IMG/VR virus record: IMGVR_UViG_3300037504_000308
Coordinates: 1 to 30,968 of that record
DNA from: a virus
Length of the DNA: 30,968 nucleotides
Strand: one strand, 5' to 3'
This document shows, one piece after another, positions 1,290 through 29,845 of the stretch. Positions within the stretch are counted from its first letter, which is position 1, and the number at the start of each line of letters is the position of its first letter. The notes below the pieces were generated by a model. That model saw nothing but the letters and a program-made list of their open reading frames with translations, was not told the DNA's origin and did not search any database. A program made the translations under genes and the position numbers.

Positions 1290-1366
1290 TGGTTCTCAGG
1301 GATGGACTCGAACCACCAATCTCTCGGTTATCAGCCGAGTGCATTAACCAGTTATGCTACCTGAGA
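1290..1366 (-). tRNA. tRNA-Ile (anticodon GAU)
   Basis: The minus strand folds into a complete 77-base cloverleaf. The acceptor stem is TCTCAGG with CCTGAGA, the D stem GCAT with ATGC, the anticodon stem CTCGG with CCGAG around loop CTGATAA, and the T stem GGTGG with CCATC around TTCGAGT. The discriminator base is A and CCA is encoded. The loop gives anticodon GAU, reading AUC and AUU. It lies between the portal region and scaffold, where processing could also separate the late transcripts. No other tRNA was found. Confidence 0.96.
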
Positions 1367-13646: not shown

Positions 13647-14001
13647 CAGGAATCTCCCAGAGTGTCAGATGAATACCCCCCGGATGCCTCGGGGGGAGAC
13701 GTTCCTTGGACACCATCACCACGTTCTTGTCGTTGGTCACGACCCCAGCCTTCTCCAGTACATCTAAGAGCTGCTTCTCGTAGGCATCGATGTCGGGAAT
13801 CCGCTTGGAGCGTGGGGTGATAGTGTAGGAGCAGGCCACAGGCCCCTCAAGAGGCTCCGGCCTACCCCCTAGTTGATCGTAGATCTCCCCCACCAGCTGT
13901 GCCTCACGCTTCCTGGAATCAGGACTGTTGACGATCCTACGCCCTGCCGCCATGAACTTACGGTTGAGGGTCACTGGGAGGCTGAGCGTGAGGTCAATCA
14001 T
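13633..14001 (-). CDS. RusA-type Holliday junction resolvase
   Basis: 122 residues with the family core: basic then acidic ITPRSKRIPDIDAYEKQLLD, where the Asp pair corresponds to the catalytic aspartates, followed by VLEKAGVVTNDKNVV (family: dG-hyD-D-Q) and a basic end. RusA dimers cut four-way junctions. In T7 this job belongs to an unrelated enzyme, gp3, so this phage uses a different resolvase to debranch DNA before packaging. The start overlaps the upstream stop (ATGA). Confidence 0.88.
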   Translation of the reverse strand: MIDLTLSLPVTLNRKFMAAGRRIVNSPDSRKREAQLVGEIYDQLGGRPEPLEGPVACSYTITPRSKRIPDIDAYEKQLLDVLEKAGVVTNDKNVVMVSKERLPPRHPGGIHLTLWEIPDDTP

Positions 14002-14354
14002 CGGGGGGCTCCAAGGCCGTACAGGACATCCAAGAGACGGATCAGGTAGCCCTTATGACAGCACACGTACACCTCAGGCTCCCCCGCCAGCTCCCACTCC
14101 TTGAGGTTGTCCTCGTCAGGCTCTTTAGGGAGCACCTCAAGAACATCATCTGATGCTACATCCTCTTCATCCCAATAGGGACTCGTGGCTACAGCTACAT
14201 ACCTACCCCCGGTGGTCACGTAGGCCTGATGCTCCATACACGTATAGAACCGCCACTCCCCATCCTCGGGGATCCTCACGACCTCCCCCGAGCGTAGCCT
14301 AACGCGCTTCCCGAGGAGGTTCAGGAGGCCCTTCACTGTATATACTTCGTACAT
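13998..14354 (-). CDS. Tandem paralogue C of a small acidic phage protein
   Basis: 118 residues, third of three adjacent paralogues. All share MY-(x)-VYTV-(x)3-L-LLGKRVRLRSG-(E/D)-VVR-(I/L)-PEDGEW, a middle VATSPYWDEEDVAS segment, and an acidic VLPKEPDEDNLKEWELAGEP linker. The LLGKRVRLRSGEVVRIPEDG part looks like a small SH3-like beta barrel. This copy keeps the longer C-terminal part (EVYVCCHKGYLIRLLDVLYG) also present in the copy at 14685-15062. Function unknown; it lies between SSB and resolvase. Confidence 0.8.
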   Translation of the reverse strand: MYEVYTVKGLLNLLGKRVRLRSGEVVRIPEDGEWRFYTCMEHQAYVTTGGRYVAVATSPYWDEEDVASDDVLEVLPKEPDEDNLKEWELAGEPEVYVCCHKGYLIRLLDVLYGLGAPR

Positions 14355-14363
14355 GTGTTCTCC

Positions 14364-14675
14364 TTAAAAGTCAGGGGTATCTTGAGGATCTTCCTTAGGA
14401 TCATCCCCCTCGGTGTTCTCTTCGTAAGCGTCCTTATCAGGCTCATCAGGGAGCACCTTAAGGATATCCCCCGGTCCGATATCCCCTTCATTCCAAGAGG
14501 GGCCCGTGGCCACATATACATACAGATCTCCGGTGGTCAAGCAGGCCTGATGCTCTGTACCCGGAAGGAAAAACCACTCCCCATCCTCAGGAAGCCTCAC
14601 GACCTCCCCTGAGCGCAGCCTCACGCGTTTCCCGAGGAGGGTCAGGAGGTCCCTCACTGTGTGTATTACATACAT
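14364..14675 (-). CDS. Tandem paralogue B, internally shortened
   Basis: 103 residues. The N-terminal 75 match the flanking paralogues closely (LLGKRVRLRSGEVVRLPEDG). The EPEVYV-type C-terminal segment of A and C is missing and replaced by an acidic run (DAYEENTEGDDPKEDPQ) before the shared ending DPQDTPDF. This looks like a deletion within one copy after duplication. AAGGAGAACC precedes the ATG, as for the other copies. Confidence 0.8.
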   Translation of the reverse strand: MYVIHTVRDLLTLLGKRVRLRSGEVVRLPEDGEWFFLPGTEHQACLTTGDLYVYVATGPSWNEGDIGPGDILKVLPDEPDKDAYEENTEGDDPKEDPQDTPDF

Positions 14676-14684
14676 AGGTTCTCC

Positions 14685-15062
14685 TTAGAAATCAGGGGTA
14701 TCTTGAGGATCTCCCTCAGGATCATACCGTCCATCCAGGAGGTGGCTCAGGGATCCTTCTTGAGACCACACGTACACCTCAGGCTCCCTCACCAACACCC
14801 ACTCCTTGAGGTTGTCCTCATCAGGCTCCTCATCAGGGAGCACCTTAAGGATATCCCCTGGCCCTACATACTCTTTATCCCAATAGGGGCTCGTGGCTAC
14901 ATATACATACAGATCTCTGATGGCCATGTAGGCTTGATTCCCCACGAGTATAAAGAACCGCCACTCCCCATCCTCAGGGATCCTCACGACATCCCCCGAG
15001 CGCAGCCTCACACGCTTCCCGAGGAGGTTCAGAAGGTCCCTCACTGTATATGCTACGTACAT
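14685..15062 (-). CDS. Tandem paralogue A of a small acidic phage protein
   Basis: 125 residues, first of the three copies and directly behind SSB. The conserved N-terminal barrel-like region (LLGKRVRLRSGDVVRIPEDG) is followed by YVYVATSPYWDKEYVGPGDI, an acidic linker, EPEVYVWSQEGSLSHLL, and the shared ending DPQDTPDF. It combines the full length of copy C with the ending of copy B, so A is probably nearest the ancestral form. AAGGAGAACAC precedes the ATG. Confidence 0.8.
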   Translation of the reverse strand: MYVAYTVRDLLNLLGKRVRLRSGDVVRIPEDGEWRFFILVGNQAYMAIRDLYVYVATSPYWDKEYVGPGDILKVLPDEEPDEDNLKEWVLVREPEVYVWSQEGSLSHLLDGRYDPEGDPQDTPDF

Positions 15063-15900: not shown

Positions 15901-18291
15901 CTAGCTGTAAGCGAAGGCTGACTCCAGAACTTCCTGGGGATCCCACGATCCCACCTCAGGGGGTTCCGGTAGGTCACAGCCTGTGAGTTGTTGCATTCCT
16001 TGGTGGAGTCTCTGGATGAGTGGCTCCTGGTTGTCCGTACGGTACATGTCGTGGAAGGAAGTCAAGAGGTTTTTCCTCATGGTGTCCACATCAGGGGCCA
16101 GCACGCCATGTTGGTCATGGACTACCGTCTGAAAGTGCACCCCATCGTCACGATTCCTGATGGCCGCCATGGAGAGCTGTTGGGAATCCAGCCAATGGAT
16201 GATGTTAGGAGCAGTAGCCTGACGAGCCTTCTTGACGTCAGGCTCGTCGGTATCCTCCCTAAACCACACCGTGGTCCTCCCGTACAGGTTGCTTACTACG
16301 TTTCGGCCCCTCTGTTTGTAGTAGGCCTGAGAGCACTGTGGATAGCTGGTATCATCGGGGATACCCCAAGATAGATGATGCCCTTGGAGAGCTGCATCCC
16401 GACCAGCCACAGAGGCCCACTGCATGTAGGCACTACCCCCAGGGACCACCTGTTGAATGGCATCCCACCAGACTCTCCCTAGATAAATACCTGCCTTATG
16501 GTGGTCGTGCTTACCAGGCCCGAAGGTCACCTTGGTGAGACCTGCCTTCAGACGCCTGAGGTACTCCTGGCGGGAGTAATCACCCATAGCCATCTTGGTC
16601 CCAGCGTATGGCTGAATCATGGTGGGGCGTTTGGCTAGAGCACGATCTATAACAACCTCCAACCACAGGGAAGCATACTCATGATCATCCAGTAGGAGGA
16701 TACCACGGGCAGCCTCGGCCACCGCATTATACACATCCTGTCGGGGACCGCCACGGAGGTTCACAAGGCCGGCCGTGTGGGGATCCAACATGAGACCGGC
16801 CTGATGTTGGAATCCGGAGCAGGTGGCGTCTTGGGTGATGGGGAGCTTGGTGATGAAACTCTCCCCTTCCTCGATGAATCCTGCCCATTCATGGCATGCT
16901 GCCAGGAAGGCCCATGGGTCATCGGCCTGAGCAAACACCTCCTCAAGATGAGACCAGGGGTCTACAGCCACATCCAGGATCCAATCGGTATTCTCCTGCG
17001 TCCAGGCTGCACGGATATCCCATGGTTCTTTATCCATGCCCCACATCCCCGCCACATGTGTAGCCAGCCAATAGGCCCCGTGCTTCCCTATGGGGAGACC
17101 GGTGTAGGACCTCAACAGGGCCTTTTCCAAGGATTCCCCTTGGGTACGGATGACGGTAGGTATGGGATATATGCGTCCTCGAGAATCACACTGGTGGGGG
17201 TAATAGATGGCCCTACCGAGGTGCTCCTCAGCAGCCCTGAGGGTACGCTCCCATTGGCCCACCTCCTGGATGCTCTTGGTGACATCCTGCCGAAGCTGAT
17301 AACGGGCATCCCCATAGGCCTTCAGCTCATCCTTGGAGGCTCCTTCAGGGGGACGCTGGGGGGCCACGTACTCCAACACCTTAGGGGCCAACTTGTGTGA
17401 GTGCTTCTGCATGTCCAAGGCAATCTGGGAGAGCCATGGATGTATCTCGTATGCCACCTCCTGGAGGGTGTTGACAGCCTCCATGCGGTTCCCTACCGGG
17501 GTGGGGGTATCACGCCGTTTCATGAAGGTGCGGCCAAACAACTCATACCCCCCGCCATCCCATTCGTCCCACTTCCTGGGGACTATGAGCATAGGTTTCA
17601 GTATGAGGTGATCCCCCATACGCTCCCTGGCGCGAGAGATCCACTCCATGGTATGATCACTGAGGCCCACCATCCATAGGTATCGGGGGCGCCCACGGTA
17701 TTCCCCTTGGAACTTCTTATAGAAGTCGAACAGAGGCGTTACCTGCTGTATGACCTCCACTAGCCCGAGGCCCATCGATATGCGTTTCTGCTTGGGGAGG
17801 GGCTCGTCGAACCAGCCGAACCGCTTCGCCACACGGGACTGTATGCGCCAGGCCTTACCCATATCGGCTAGCACACCCGTGGCTGATGCCCCCTGCTTGT
17901 CTGCCTGGAGACGATTGGAAATAACCTTATGTATGCCCTCGTTACGTGCACTCATGTTGGCCCACCGATGAAGCCTAACCTCCCGCATCAAGGCGCTTCC
18001 TACGGCTTGTGCGGCGCAGGTCTTAGATACGGCGGTGTTGGCCAGCAGGCGGCACAGGAGGGTAGCCAGGGCTGAGGTCACGGCTGGAGCTATGTCGGGA
18101 AGGTCCCTCAGATAGAGCACCAGGTAGGGAGCCCGTGTACTCTCCTTCTTGATACGCTTCCACTCGTCCACAATGTCCTGCACGTATTCGCGAATAAGTA
18201 AGGCAATGATAGTCCGGTCGTATACGTCCCGAGTGTTCACCATGGATCGCTCGTGGGCTAGCTCCACTGCTAGTATTGGGTCTTCATCCAT
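15901..18291 (-). CDS. Single-subunit DNA-directed RNA polymerase (T7 gp1-like)
   Basis: 796 residues from the ATG at 18291, with AAGGAG six bases upstream; this start overlaps the stop of a 41-codon ORF. Conserved motifs are DSRGRIYP (369-376), QDATCSGFQH with the catalytic Asp at 488, LAKRPTMIQPYAG with K554 and Y562, and VHDQHGVL with the second catalytic Asp at 726. The C terminus LESAFAYS matches the FAFA foot of T7 polymerase. It is about 85 residues shorter than T7 gp1 (883), partly between motifs A and B, yet all catalytic residues are present. It would transcribe the phage genes downstream, but I could not extract its promoter consensus. Confidence 0.97.
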   Translation of the reverse strand: MDEDPILAVELAHERSMVNTRDVYDRTIIALLIREYVQDIVDEWKRIKKESTRAPYLVLYLRDLPDIAPAVTSALATLLCRLLANTAVSKTCAAQAVGSALMREVRLHRWANMSARNEGIHKVISNRLQADKQGASATGVLADMGKAWRIQSRVAKRFGWFDEPLPKQKRISMGLGLVEVIQQVTPLFDFYKKFQGEYRGRPRYLWMVGLSDHTMEWISRARERMGDHLILKPMLIVPRKWDEWDGGGYELFGRTFMKRRDTPTPVGNRMEAVNTLQEVAYEIHPWLSQIALDMQKHSHKLAPKVLEYVAPQRPPEGASKDELKAYGDARYQLRQDVTKSIQEVGQWERTLRAAEEHLGRAIYYPHQCDSRGRIYPIPTVIRTQGESLEKALLRSYTGLPIGKHGAYWLATHVAGMWGMDKEPWDIRAAWTQENTDWILDVAVDPWSHLEEVFAQADDPWAFLAACHEWAGFIEEGESFITKLPITQDATCSGFQHQAGLMLDPHTAGLVNLRGGPRQDVYNAVAEAARGILLLDDHEYASLWLEVVIDRALAKRPTMIQPYAGTKMAMGDYSRQEYLRRLKAGLTKVTFGPGKHDHHKAGIYLGRVWWDAIQQVVPGGSAYMQWASVAGRDAALQGHHLSWGIPDDTSYPQCSQAYYKQRGRNVVSNLYGRTTVWFREDTDEPDVKKARQATAPNIIHWLDSQQLSMAAIRNRDDGVHFQTVVHDQHGVLAPDVDTMRKNLLTSFHDMYRTDNQEPLIQRLHQGMQQLTGCDLPEPPEVGSWDPQEVLESAFAYS

Positions 18292-18409: not shown

Positions 18410-18412
18410 GGG

Positions 18413-18631
18413 TTAGCTGTCCGAACGTCTCACGCCACGGTATACAACCGGGTGATCACTATCATATGGGTATTTGCACCCAGCATCGGTAAACTCGCAC
18501 AACTCCCACTCATGATAGTCATCTATATCTTCGGAAGCGGCAGTGTCAGCAGCGTTTTTACCTTCCTCTAGATTATCCCCGATCCAAAAGACACCGTGTC
18601 CATATACGCCCATTTTGTACAGAAAATACAT
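18413..18631 (-). CDS. Last gene of the attC-flanked array (unknown function)
   Basis: 72 residues from the ATG at 18631 with AGGAGG five bases upstream; longer frames would read through an attC-like site and are rejected. The protein starts MYFLYKMGVYGHGVFWIGDN and has an acidic middle (ASEDIDDYHEWELCEFTDAG). It looks like a small soluble globular protein. Its TAA is part of GTTAG at the edge of the array, as in the other cassettes, but no full attC palindrome follows. Confidence 0.72.
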   Translation of the reverse strand: MYFLYKMGVYGHGVFWIGDNLEEGKNAADTAASEDIDDYHEWELCEFTDAGCKYPYDSDHPVVYRGVRRSDS

Positions 18632-18658
18632 GTCTTCCTCCTTGGCAGTAAGTTGCCA

Positions 18659-18711
18659 GCTAGCAAGGTGATTCATCGGAAGACCTCGCGTCGCTGGTCT
18701 CGGTGTTAGAT
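18659..18711. repeat. attC-like site 1 (one end degenerate)
   Basis: A perfect core GTTAGAT (18705-18711) is paired across 40 bases with a degraded partner, GCTAGCAAGG, in place of GCTAACAAGG. The interior keeps the sequence TCGCGTCGCTGGTCT, shared with the site at 19231-19284. The TAA stop of the gene at 18706-18900 is inside the core. The degraded end suggests reduced function. Confidence 0.7.
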
Positions 18712-18900
18712 GACTATGGGCGTCATACCTGCGCGTAGGCAAGCAATCTCGCGATCCTTGGCGTCTATTACTTCGCGCACTAGCGCCGCAGGCGGAGTGC
18801 CAAGCGGTCCATGTTTCGCGACCATTCCATCAGACAGGTCAAGCTCGTTGACAACGTCTTCAAGCATGTTCTCTAGTTGTTCCTTGGTCCAAGATGACAT
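18706..18900 (-). CDS. Cassette-like gene, small helical protein
   Basis: 64 residues from the ATG at 18900 (GGAG seven bases upstream; the longer frame to 18930 begins inside the attC core). The sequence MSSWTKEQLENMLEDVVNEL is amphipathic, and a second helix near the C terminus is VREVIDAKDREIACLRAG. The TAA is within the GTTAGAT core of the neighbouring attC-like site. The protein may dimerise; I recognise no family. Confidence 0.72.
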   Translation of the reverse strand: MSSWTKEQLENMLEDVVNELDLSDGMVAKHGPLGTPPAALVREVIDAKDREIACLRAGMTPIVI

Positions 18901-18928
18901 TGGTGTCTCCGTTCGTTTGTGTGTAGCC

Positions 18929-18975
18929 ATCTAACAATCCGCCCCAGCAGACGCCGATCAATGTTTGGGTCAGCT
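18929..18975. repeat. attC-like site 2 (diverged)
   Basis: ATCTAACAA at 18929-18937 is a perfect core. The other arm is mutated to GGTCAGCT (consensus GTTAGCT). Inner arms CAGC/GCTG-type pair only partly. The TGA of the gene at 18970-19203 falls in the mutated arm, so here a TCA/TGA change replaces the usual TTA/TAA. It is the weakest site of the cluster. Confidence 0.5.
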
Positions 18976-19203
18976 GGCTGCGTGAATACCGGCAATGGTT
19001 GGAGATAACCGGATTTTGCAGCCCTTAAAAACGAATGGACGCCCTTGCATTTCTGGAAGACTGGCGGCTGTCTTCCGCATGTTGGATTGCTCTACCAGCA
19101 TCAGCATGGTTGCCTCGTTCATAACGAGGCATTCCGGCGCCACACCGTGACGTGCTCGGTAGGATTCAATACGATCAATTGCTATCCTTATTAAGTCAAT
19201 CAT
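18970..19203 (-). CDS. Cassette-like gene, unknown function
   Basis: 77 residues from the ATG at 19203 (AAAGGG six bases upstream). It starts MIDLIRIAIDRIESYRARHG, continues PECLVMNEATMLMLVEQSNM, and ends GCKIRLSPTIAGIHAAS. The MNEATMLML and GCKIRLSPT segments are like those of small prophage-type proteins that I cannot name. Its composition (more A/T, fewer CCT/AGG repeats) differs from adjacent replication genes. It is flanked by attC-like sites on both sides. Confidence 0.75.
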   Translation of the reverse strand: MIDLIRIAIDRIESYRARHGVAPECLVMNEATMLMLVEQSNMRKTAASLPEMQGRPFVFKGCKIRLSPTIAGIHAAS

Positions 19204-19230
19204 AGTTGACCCTTTCTGCAGTAAGTCGCC

Positions 19231-19284
19231 AGCCAACAACCCGATGCAGCGGACTCGCCGCGTCGCTGGTCCTGGTGTTATCTG
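19231..19284. repeat. attC-like site 3
   Basis: The arms are GCCAACAACC and GTGTTATCTGG (core GTTATCT at 19277-19283). Inner arms are GCAGCGG with CCGCGTCGCTGG. Length is about 54 bases. The TAA stop of the gene at 19278-19538 lies within the core. The interior GATGCAGCGG is shared with the sites at 22814 and 23068. Confidence 0.72.
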
Positions 19285-19538
19285 GCGGGCGCGTAGGTCG
19301 CATCAAAGATGTCTGGCCTGCAGGGGTAGAACTCGCCCTGCACTCCTTTGCAGACCCATGTGCCCTTATGGATATGCGCCCAGTTGCCATCAATGGTTTG
19401 TATACTGAAGGTTTCGCTGCCCATCTCCCCTGGTTCCCATTTAATCTCACCCATCGCATGTATCTGATCCCATGCGGCCTTCGTCCCGTCCCACTGCACC
19501 GCCTCAATGGTTACAAGTTTCTTTATAAAAAATGGCAT
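19278..19538 (-). CDS. Cassette-like gene, phage/prophage-type small protein
   Basis: 86 residues starting MPFFIKKLVTIEAVQWDGTK and ending VQGEFYPCRPDIFDATYAPA. The pattern IEAVQWDG ... I-(x)-T-(x)-DG ... GEFYPCRPDIFDATY is familiar from small proteins in many phages and prophages, of unknown function; this is recall of a pattern, not a search result. AAGGAG lies six bases before the ATG. The stop is inside an attC core. Confidence 0.82.
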   Translation of the reverse strand: MPFFIKKLVTIEAVQWDGTKAAWDQIHAMGEIKWEPGEMGSETFSIQTIDGNWAHIHKGTWVCKGVQGEFYPCRPDIFDATYAPAR

Positions 19539-19563
19539 TGGAACTCCTTAGCAGTAAGATGCC

Positions 19564-19622
19564 AGCTAATAACGCGTTACAGAGCGGGCCGCTTCATCGC
19601 GTCGCTGATCTTGGTATTAGCT
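19564..19622. repeat. attC-like site 4
   Basis: The outer arms AGCTAAT and ATTAGCT (19564-19570 and 19616-19622) are a perfect 7-bp inverted repeat. Inner elements GAGCGG and CGTCGCTGATC resemble the L arms of the other sites. The interior TCATCGCGTCGCT is shared with the site at 18659. The TAA of the gene at 19617-19826 lies in the right arm. Confidence 0.7.
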
Positions 19623-19826
19623 GCCGTCTGACAGTCCCGCGTTGAGGATTGGCAACAGAGCAGCCGCTTCAGAGGGGGTCGCCTTCCTCTCGATGGTGTA
19701 CTGTGACACCGGCCCTTCGTACCCAAGGCAGCCAGTGTCGCGTGATTTACCTTGTTTCTTAATCCACAAAACCTGTGCTCCGAAAAAACTTGGCTTGAAG
19801 TAGTACTGTATTGTTTTTTCTGGCAT
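19617..19826 (-). CDS. First gene of the attC-flanked array (unknown function)
   Basis: 69 residues from the ATG at 19826 (AAAGGA upstream). The protein begins MPEKTIQYYFKPSFFGAQVL and contains GYEGPVSQYTIERKATPSEA. It is markedly more AT-rich than neighbouring phage genes, with T and A runs near its 5' end, which suggests separate ancestry. It is the first unit of the array after the large gene at 19873-20985. No family recognised. Confidence 0.75.
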   Translation of the reverse strand: MPEKTIQYYFKPSFFGAQVLWIKKQGKSRDTGCLGYEGPVSQYTIERKATPSEAAALLPILNAGLSDGS

Positions 19827-19840
19827 GTGTTTTCCTTTCA

Positions 19841-19866
19841 GCAGTAAGATGCCTGCTAACAAGGCT
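19841..19866. repeat. Array boundary: half attC core with conserved leader
   Basis: The sequence GCAGTAAGATGCCTGCTAAC continues as AAGGC. It repeats the leader-plus-core seen beside the other sites of the cluster (near 18645, 19220 and 19551), but no matching GTTRRRY arm follows; backbone gene sequence begins within a few bases. It would be the backbone-side junction of the array, equivalent to an attachment site. Confidence 0.6.
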
Positions 19867-19872
19867 ATCTGG

Positions 19873-20985
19873 TCAGTCCCCCAGGTCGAAGATGTTGTGG
19901 CCTGTGTAGGTGAGTTCCTCAGTAGATGACCACACCCCATGCCTACACTGCCCATAGTATACCCGAAAGAGCGGCGTACCAGAAACAACATGCTCGATCA
20001 CCACCCCACGGCCAAACTCAGGATGATCCACCACGTCCCCCTTACGGGGTTCATAGGGCAGCACCTCCAGGTGACGGGGGTCGAAGACTTTAAACTTGAG
20101 GATCACGTCCCCCAGTGAGTCAACAGAACCCACCGTGAGGATCTCCCCTAGGCGCGTCGCTGCGTTGTCCTCGCTCCTATACCACACATCACCCCCAGCC
20201 TCATCCAGGGGCTCACAGCTCACGACCTTCACACGTACTCCCTTGCGGATGCCCTTGAGGGCCTCTTCCTTGGTACGCTCGTGGGGCTTGGGCTTACTGC
20301 GGTACTCCTGGAGACGGCAACTGTGTCCACTCCAATAGCATACCCCTTGGGGGGAAGAGCACCAGCTGAAGAAGACCAGGGGGTATTTCTCCAAACCATG
20401 TTCATCGAGTATTTCAAACCGCCCATCCATAGGCAAAGCCCGGAGGTTCTCAGCCGCTTCCACCTCTCCCATCTTCTCCAGATCATCCGCAGCTGCATCC
20501 CTGAGGGCAATGCGCTTTTGGCGTTCGCTGCGGTACTCCTGGAGACGGTCCGAGATATCCCGCCAGTATGTATGACCCTGGGGGGTATCATCGAAGACAA
20601 AGCATTCTGAAATTCTATCCCAACCAACCCAACCACACAACCTCCAGGCCTCATTCTCAAGGTAGTCCGCAGCCTCCTCCTCGCCCATCTCCCGGAGGTC
20701 ATCGATTAGGGATTGATACTCAGGACCCCATGAGGGCTTCTGCGGGGCTGCCTTGACGAGTTCTAGGGAGTCCTCGTGGAGGACGTACTGCCCACGGGAT
20801 GCCCCCTCGCCCACACAATCCCACCTATAAGCAGGTTCTATGTTGTGTAGTAGATACCTACCGGTGATGCGTACCTCCTGCCCTAGGTACTCATCTCCGG
20901 ACCATCTGCTAACACGACCATCCAGGTAGGGACTCTTGGACACCACCTTACAGATGTCCCCAATGTTGTACTTGTGATTCGTCAT
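19873..20985 (-). CDS. Large acidic protein with an internal duplication
   Basis: 370 residues; AAGGAG lies nine bases upstream of the ATG. The N-terminal region (MTNHKYNIGDICKVVSKSPY, later LGQEVRITGRYLL) and the C-terminal region (PRKGDVVDHPEFGRGVVIEH) look like small SH3/KOW-type beta domains. Between them two related repeats occur: DDLREMGEEEAADYLE...QGHTYW...DRLQEYRS (about 88-155) and DDLEKMGEVEAAENLR...QGVCYW...CRLQEYRS (about 165-232). Function unknown; repeats plus barrel domains suggest protein or nucleic-acid binding. It overlaps the RNA ligase stop (ATGA). Confidence 0.78.
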   Translation of the reverse strand: MTNHKYNIGDICKVVSKSPYLDGRVSRWSGDEYLGQEVRITGRYLLHNIEPAYRWDCVGEGASRGQYVLHEDSLELVKAAPQKPSWGPEYQSLIDDLREMGEEEAADYLENEAWRLCGWVGWDRISECFVFDDTPQGHTYWRDISDRLQEYRSERQKRIALRDAAADDLEKMGEVEAAENLRALPMDGRFEILDEHGLEKYPLVFFSWCSSPQGVCYWSGHSCRLQEYRSKPKPHERTKEEALKGIRKGVRVKVVSCEPLDEAGGDVWYRSEDNAATRLGEILTVGSVDSLGDVILKFKVFDPRHLEVLPYEPRKGDVVDHPEFGRGVVIEHVVSGTPLFRVYYGQCRHGVWSSTEELTYTGHNIFDLGD

Positions 20986-22543: not shown

Positions 22544-22768
22544 TTAGGTTTCTTCCTGGATGTTAGGTGTAGGCTGTGGGATTGGTGGTACTGGCGACCA
22601 CTCCCCGCCCTGCGAACTAACATCGATCGTCCAGATCGTTCCATCATCGCACAGCGCAGTGATGACATCATATGCAGCCCCATTTGCAGGTACGATGTGC
22701 GTTTGTATTTGCATTACCCTCCTTGCCCTGGCGGCCATCAGGTCGGGCGGTTGTTTTGGTTTGACCAT
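22544..22768 (-). CDS. Cassette-like gene, Pro-rich tail, unknown function
   Basis: 74 residues from the ATG at 22768 (GGAG five bases upstream); an ATG at 22789 would add seven residues. Sequence: basic start MVKPKQPPDLMAARARRVMQ, beta-like middle DVITALCDDGTIWTIDVSSQ, and a Pro-rich tail. Its TAA is inside GTTAGGT. It is preceded by an attC-like site at 22814-22865. The DDGTIW-W-type middle is seen in other small phage proteins, but I cannot name a family. Confidence 0.72.
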   Translation of the reverse strand: MVKPKQPPDLMAARARRVMQIQTHIVPANGAAYDVITALCDDGTIWTIDVSSQGGEWSPVPPIPQPTPNIQEET

Positions 22769-22813
22769 GCTCACTCCATATCCGCGCATTAAAAAGTGCT
22801 CTCTTCCGTTTGC

Positions 22814-22865
22814 GCCTAACAACGCGATGCAGCGGATTTGTCGCGCCGTTGGTCTTGGGTTTATA
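22814..22865. repeat. attC-like site 5
   Basis: A perfect GCCTAAC core (22814-22820) followed by AACGCGATGCAGCGG; the opposite inner arm is CGCCGTTGGTCTTGG, ending in a degenerate core GTTTATA (22859-22865). About 52 bases long. The arm GATGCAGCGG is shared with the sites at 19231 and 23068. Confidence 0.75.
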
Positions 22866-22870
22866 TACTC

Positions 22871-23056
22871 CTACACCGCCGCCTGCAGTCTTGCCTTTAT
22901 GTCCTTGATGTAAGCGACTACGACGTCTGACTCTGCTGCCACAAAAGGCCCATCGTAGTCATAGTGCATTCCAAGGGCTTCGGAAACCTTTCTAATCCAC
23001 TCTGCATGGGTTGAGCAAGTATCGTACGCACTCAATACATTGTCTTTATCACGCAT
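22871..23056 (-). CDS. Cassette-like gene, small helical protein
   Basis: 61 residues: MRDKDNVLSAYDTCSTHAEW, then IRKVSEALGMHYDYDGPFVA and a C-terminal helix with IKDIKARLQAAV. It lies between two attC-like sites and its ATG is only 12 bases from the core of the site at 23068. No strong ribosome binding site (GGGCTTACT). Function unknown; AT content is higher than in the replication genes. Confidence 0.65.
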   Translation of the reverse strand: MRDKDNVLSAYDTCSTHAEWIRKVSEALGMHYDYDGPFVAAESDVVVAYIKDIKARLQAAV

Positions 23057-23067
23057 AGTAAGCCCAT

Positions 23068-23122
23068 ATCTAACAAGGTGATGCAGCGGTCCGCTTCGCG
23101 CCGCTTATCTTGGTGGTTAGGT
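23068..23122. repeat. attC-like site 6 (best preserved)
   Basis: Both ends fit the integron core consensus exactly: ATCTAAC (23068-23074, RYYYAAC) and GTTAGGT (23116-23122, GTTRRRY). Inner arms are CAAGGTG...GCAGCGG and CCGCTTATCTTGG, enclosing a short GC-rich loop. The total of 55 bases and this order are those of short attC sites. It was found by pairing the ends by eye; folding of the bottom strand was not computed. Confidence 0.85.
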
Positions 23123-29495: not shown

Positions 29496-29845
29496 GAGGT
29501 GCTCCTTTCAGCACTAGGGATTGGGTATGGCACACATAGGTACCACTACCATGAAGAAAGACCTAGGGAGAGACCTGAGGAAGAACACCCTAGGGAGGGA
29601 AGTGATACGAAGTGATGAGAAGAGAAGTGATGAGATGAGAGGTGAAGTGACGATATGATAGGACTGAGAGCAAGGAAGACCTAGGGAGAGACTTAAGGTA
29701 GTACCTTAAGATTAACCTTAAGTAGGGGAGAATTTAAACAGAACCACCACAGAGTTTGTTTTATCTCGTTGAAGTGAATCTATCTCGCATAGGAAGCGAA
29801 GCTTCCCCTAGGACACATCCTAAGGTCACTATCTTAAGATGTGCC
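29496..29845. other. Non-coding region with dense repeats
   Basis: No gene in 350 bases. Plus-strand features: two copies of GACCTAGGGAGAGAC (29570 and 29680 area); a purine-rich tract with four GAAGTGA units (29600-29655); CTTAAGGTAGTACCTTAAG, an 8-bp inverted repeat around AGT near 29695-29713; and TATCTCG twice (29762 and 29781). It precedes a late gene, so a phage-polymerase promoter is expected here, but none could be assigned. Confidence 0.6.

Follow-up and report, generated by a model that had tools for sequence, protein, structure and literature searches.

What are attC-like repeats doing between the small genes that precede the RNA polymerase gene of a T7-like phage, and do the units that they delimit obey the rules of bacterial integrons? 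Integrons are regarded as bacterial devices, and CALINs in phages as stray bacterial cassettes. The window analysed here, a stretch of 30,968 bases that is the whole of an IMG/VR virus record, holds two attC arrays that lack an integrase, and their type appears to be characteristic of phages. They probably belong to a phage-specific form of attC cassette, with genes in reverse polarity, which would be mobilised by the integron integrase (IntI) of the host; as a whole, we rate this best explanation as moderately probable. Its direct support consists of homology to bacterial attC sites, the absence of IntI, reversal in many unrelated phages, intact core boxes in better-preserved arrays and the recurrence of a unit. 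If reversal is consistent across unrelated phages, attC would be used by phages under different rules.

The phage and its attC-like sites

Searches against PHROG and Pfam identified a family-A DNA polymerase, a T7-like primase/helicase, a head-tail connector and a T7-like single-subunit RNA polymerase (15901–18291, minus strand; phrog_414, E = 3e-142; PF00940, E = 3e-63), the last lying downstream of the first array and transcribed in the same direction. An earlier note, made from the sequence of the window, had described the phage as T7-like and put an integron-like array immediately upstream of this gene, and these matches bear it out. The RNA polymerase shares only ~27% identity with its nearest isolate homologues, and peptide patterns drawn from it recovered no relatives in IMG/VR. 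Elsewhere the window carries a tRNA-Ile (anticodon GAT; 1290–1366, minus strand), short imperfect direct repeats of the AAGACCTAGGGAGAGACCT kind (29553–29704) and a tandem gene triplication (13998–15062), in which three adjacent minus-strand ORFs (13998–14354, 14364–14675 and 14685–15062) encode clearly similar products with the shared N-terminus MYxxxTVxxLLxLLGKRVRLRSGxVVRxPEDGEW.

A DNA pattern from a second phage, the unrelated siphovirus contig L004, matched in ten bacterial genomes, mostly at evident attC sites, and further genomes were then added. To avoid circularity, our covariance model, R1, was built from 25 aligned bacterial attC sites only, with the known attC pairing and two extrahelical bases on L''. 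The pairing is strongly backed by covariation: in the R1 alignment 87% of cells were paired, against 24–40% when partners were slid. The model retrieved arrays in genomes bearing an integrase; all attC calls reported here were made with it. Pattern matches in contigs L005 and L061/L063 had no match to the model and were discarded as chance or partial matches. Rfam, searched at gathering and permissive thresholds, returned nothing relevant, and the array had no gathering-level match.

On the full window R1 gave seven matches in two arrays, every one on the plus strand, and by these scores the elements belong to the attC class, with R''/R' boxes (RYYYAAC/GTTRRRY) flanking paired L''/L' and extrahelical bases on L''. 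In the first array one site is clearly significant (site 3, 19231–19283; 29.9 bits, E = 6e-6), with the boxes R'' AGCCAAC, L'' CAGCGGAC, L' GTCGCTG and R' GTTATCT. One is marginal (site 4, 19564–19622; 15.9 bits, E = 0.045): its R'' and R' have changed together to TAAT/ATTA, within 18-nt inverted arms at 19554–19571 and 19615–19632. The earlier note had staked its claim of attC-type repeats on matches to a covariance model, and a model of bacterial sites alone provided them at 19231 and 19564. Three further matches are weak. Site 1 (18658–18711; 9.3 bits, E = 3.2) has both conserved halves in common with sites 3 and 4, an R'' decayed to AGCTAGC and an intact R', GTTAGAT; site 2 (18929–19000; 12.2 bits, E = 0.5) is of a different subtype, with R'' ATCTAAC and a degraded R'; and a half attC of repeat family D1 (19841–19875; model match 19854–19900, 9.1 bits, E = 3.6) consists of the leader GCAGTAAGATGCC and R'' TGCTAACAA without L'/R' and forms the promoter-proximal end of the array. 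These three look decayed and, although non-significant alone, were accepted because they share repeats, strand and spacing with the other sites. The left-half repeats, GCAGTAAG..GCCAGCTAACAA, lie at 18645, 19218, 19551 and 19841, and the right-half repeats, CGCGTCGCTGRTC..GGTGTTA, at 18687, 19259 and 19598; the half-site motif YAACAANNYGATNCAGCGG has three copies in the window against 0.0 per shuffled window. Judged by its sequence, an orphan R'-like box, GTTAGCT (18412–18418, plus strand), which overlaps the stop codon of the final gene in the array, is a candidate distal boundary of the array. The four sites and one half site of the earlier note were thus all recovered on one strand, three of them as weak matches and several in decay; the note had missed the second array altogether. 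That array comprises site 6 (22814–22866; 16.4 bits, E = 0.033), a 47-nt stretch of which matches site 3 at 81% identity, and site 7 (23068–23122; 32.3 bits, E = 1.2e-6; R'' ATCTAAC, R' GTTAGGT), the best of the window. The leader beside R'', GCAGTAAG..GCCAGC (18645–18660, 19218–19233, 19551–19566 and 19841–19856), recurs nearly exactly in the siphovirus contig (680–705), whose R''-L'' halves match bacterial attC.

A six-frame search of the window with a profile of 20 IntI proteins from bacterial loci (positive control, E = 1e-179) yielded no IntI-like ORF. Both clusters therefore answer to the description of a CALIN proposed earlier, with at least two R1-called attC sites within a few kilobases and no integron integrase nearby; a complete integron (intI, attI and Pc) is not present, intI being absent from a 30,968-base record that is possibly incomplete. 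Several sites of the window are degraded, CALINs of phages are known (PMC9892861) and IntI is common in a class of candidate hosts (above the cut-off in 72 of 185 genomes), all of which favours the reading of the arrays as ordinary CALIN debris: host cassettes picked up by a phage through chance and now in decay. Across the window GTT is kept in R' at four of seven sites and AAC in R'' at five of seven, so the arrays may be inactive, and may now be only remnants. What this reading has to explain is the orientation of the genes.

Polarity of genes and attC sites

The direction of an attC site is set by its extrahelical bases and spacers, and bacterial cassette genes are read the same way. All attC sites of the window are on the plus strand and all its cassette genes on the minus strand, so it lacks the canonical layout of an integron cassette, in which a gene in the attC sense carries its own attC at its 3' end; the earlier integron reading holds for the type of site and fails for the arrangement of the genes. 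The first array contains gene 1 (18413–18631, 72 aa), with the Shine–Dalgarno sequence AAGGAGG and its start near R'' of the site at 18658, gene 2 (18706–18900, 64 aa), whose stop codon TAA lies inside an R' box, gene 3 (18970–19203, 77 aa), gene 4 (19278–19538, 86 aa) and gene 5 (19617–19826, 69 aa). In the second array, where the start signals of both genes are weaker, an ORF of ~81 aa (22544–22789; a shorter start is possible) has a Shine–Dalgarno sequence and a start ~25 nt away from the R'' box of site 22814, and an ORF of 61 aa lies between sites 6 and 7 (22871–23056), with a weak Shine–Dalgarno sequence and no call in the cassette count described below. Start codons in the window stand ~24–29 nt from R'', and a reversed gene start was found near R'' at six of the seven sites, a canonical one at none.

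An initial test based on ORF length was noisy in GC-rich bacterial arrays and was superseded by tests based on ribosome-binding sites. The calls used ORFs of 45 aa or more with a Shine–Dalgarno sequence: one that started 8–52 nt from R'' on the strand opposite the attC made a site reversed, and one that started 5–62 nt past R' on the attC strand made it canonical. The bacterial control was drawn for the most part from a single GTDB class, the one to which a Rhodocyclaceae genome belongs, and otherwise from a few scattered genomes. For a gene-blind viral sample, IMG/VR was scanned with two attC DNA patterns and the contigs were scored by R1, so that the database was sampled by few patterns. At the level of sites, bacterial arrays gave 53 canonical and one reversed call (165 sites), as against none and 19 (28 sites) in the window together with the phage contigs G001, G331, G332 and G333, which have terminase, portal or connector genes and are likewise reversed, and six and 47 (82 sites) in the pattern-found viral contigs, excluding one with a true IntI. 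Fisher's test of bacterial against phage sites gave p = 1.8e-27, with sites within one contig being non-independent; with one vote per contig, and contig totals entered by hand, p was ~2e-6. Counted by cassette, bacteria had 36 canonical and two reversed units, the five phages none and 15, and the pattern-found contigs nine and 38; the IntI-bearing contig L136 supplied four of those nine canonical cassettes. Since R1 favours the assigned strand by ~20–50 bits, strand assignment is not marginal. The IntI profile had no IntI-like match in G001, G331 or G332, and its one match in G333 was an ordinary phage integrase.

Among the reversed contigs, L131, L132, L133, L140, L146, L148, L151 and L155 carry phage hallmark or replication genes, and phage identity is less certain for L130, L141, L144, L147 and L154. 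Two phage-like contigs, L143 (3565–6949) and L149 (100–1491), are exceptions with canonical arrays; they are 92.6% identical to one another over 3 kb, and L149 encodes a major head protein of phrog_70. In L136 (IMGVR_UViG_2834908352_000001) an integron with IntI (E = 1e-156) sits beside a 14-site array and is likely to be host DNA adjoining a prophage.

These counts weigh on two of the alternatives. Host cassettes would stay canonical whichever way an array was inserted, yet the phage units are reversed, and we consider chance debris unlikely as an account of them. The arrays could also have been taken from an unsampled bacterial lineage whose integrons have reversed cassettes, an idea favoured by the narrow bacterial sampling and by the GAT/ATC attC subtype of the window, which was missing from 369 genomes of one class. 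Reversed phage arrays, however, span several attC subtypes, the common proteobacterial one included, which makes a single donor lineage unlikely, and we regard this origin as quite improbable. Within the preferred reading of a reversed, phage-specific cassette form, the arrays of the window are probably partly decayed examples.

Cargo, core boxes and exchange of units

Phage units are mostly 150–430 bp long, and their products are mostly of 40–130 aa; of the products searched, most have no known family. In the first array genes 1, 2, 3 and 5 matched no known family (for gene 1, in PHROG and Pfam), tblastn of gene 3 against 50,697 phage records and of gene 5 against the phage records gave zero matches, and gene 4 belongs to phrog_419 (E = 5e-20), a family of unknown function with homologues in 657 phage records. 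It was also the only match when the first array was compared with phage records by blastn. Recognised cargo in the phage arrays includes N6_N4 and D12 DNA methyltransferases and Mom, DNA-modification genes that can shield phage DNA from restriction. Together with phrog_419 this is phage-like cargo, a second point against the debris of host cassettes.

A different view is that attC-derived hairpins, each placed a short way ahead of a start codon, now serve as RNA elements in processing, insulation or translation control, resembling PeSLs, with the genes between them shuffled as the repeats recombine by homology. In its favour, start codons in phage arrays generally keep to a narrow range of distances from R'' (mostly 19–28 nt), leaders are conserved within a phage and the R boxes of site 19564 have co-changed with pairing kept. 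Pairing tolerates compensatory change, yet in 13 reversed contigs the GTT of R', which contains the G|TT recombination point, was intact at 61 of 62 sites and the AAC of R'' likewise at 61 of 62. This conservation exceeds what selection on a hairpin alone would require, and we give the RNA-element account only a small chance.

Exchange of units in phages is inferred here from sequence comparison. A gene of ~230 codons is common to G332, G333, L131 and L144 at 67–83% nucleotide identity; these phages are otherwise unrelated, save for attC-like stretches and one weak pair of array genes, and their homology stops at the gene, between the attC sites. Alignment of the shared cassette gave no clear sign that either flanking attC had migrated with the gene, and the gene also has relatives in isolates, among them Pseudomonas phage Persinger (a gene-level match), which leaves room for homologous or illegitimate recombination. 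The sharing thus supports the exchange of single units, with the identity of IntI as the agent a separate matter. Three reversed arrays with differing cassettes (in L133, L146 and L155) lie close downstream of a RecE-like exonuclease gene (phrog_7655), a possible recurrent insertion locus; a comparison of L130 with L155 for turnover at the same locus found only ~295 nt of common backbone.

A possible mechanism and known systems

The unit that we envisage is a small promoterless gene with its ribosome-binding site and start codon near an attC, on the R'' side. A start in that position means that the gene runs against the polarity of attC and that its coding strand is the recombinogenic bottom strand. 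Only the folded bottom strand of attC recombines, and in Vibrio cholerae inversion of the array, which places bottom strands on the lagging-strand template, sharply increases excision (PMC11023631). When bottom strand and coding strand are one and the same, transcription in the direction of fork movement puts that strand on the lagging-strand template. Phage replication would then expose attC bottom strands in single-stranded form, and a host integron integrase, acting in trans during infection, could recombine them once folded and so exchange units. Behind a host Pc promoter the reversed units would be silent, and host cassettes in a phage would be antisense, so the two pools should tend to stay separate. 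Reversal in this phage and in most of the other attC-bearing phages found suggests a pool of swappable genes that belongs to phages alone. The fuller proposition, that this pool is separate from the bacterial one, comprises reversed units in unrelated lytic and temperate phages, is exchanged by host integrases, owes its form to placement on the coding strand and is set apart by polarity, is one that we advance tentatively, at slightly under an even chance. With reversal consistent across unrelated phages, the swapping of anti-restriction genes among lytic phages by host integrase would become directly testable, as would polarity as a barrier between host and phage cassette pools. Polarity would also be a simple marker with which to separate phage from bacterial cassettes in metagenomes.

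CALINs in virulent phages are already published: Qi et al. (2023; PMC9892861) describe them in TJE1, H101 (PH101) and P12002L, and in MW202573. In that work IntI1 recombined five of six assayed phage attC sites (from TJE1, H101 and P12002L) at the G|TT point, with higher recombination for the bottom than for the top strand; its text is silent on the polarity of gene and attC. By R1, annotated genes run opposite to the attC strand in H101/PH101, P12002L and MW202573, and TJE1 is canonical; the match in P12002L is weak (16.3 bits), and the R1 matches in H101 and P12002L may differ from the sites assayed with IntI1. Like the phage arrays described here, these are integrase-less attC clusters with small cargo that includes DNA methyltransferases, and three of the four are reversed, as the window is; the phage of the window differs in being T7-like and uncultivated and in having two arrays. 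With the cassettes of bacterial chromosomal and mobile integrons the window shares the R''/L''/L'/R' architecture, the two extrahelical L'' bases and one small promoterless gene per unit, whereas its genes are reversed, with attC 5' of the gene, and intI, attI and Pc are missing. The PeSLs of T4-type phages are mobile regulatory cassettes with a phage promoter inside and are not attC-like. They resemble the arrays of the window in setting repeated hairpins among small accessory phage genes in plastic regions; the elements of the window, in contrast, fit the attC covariance model.
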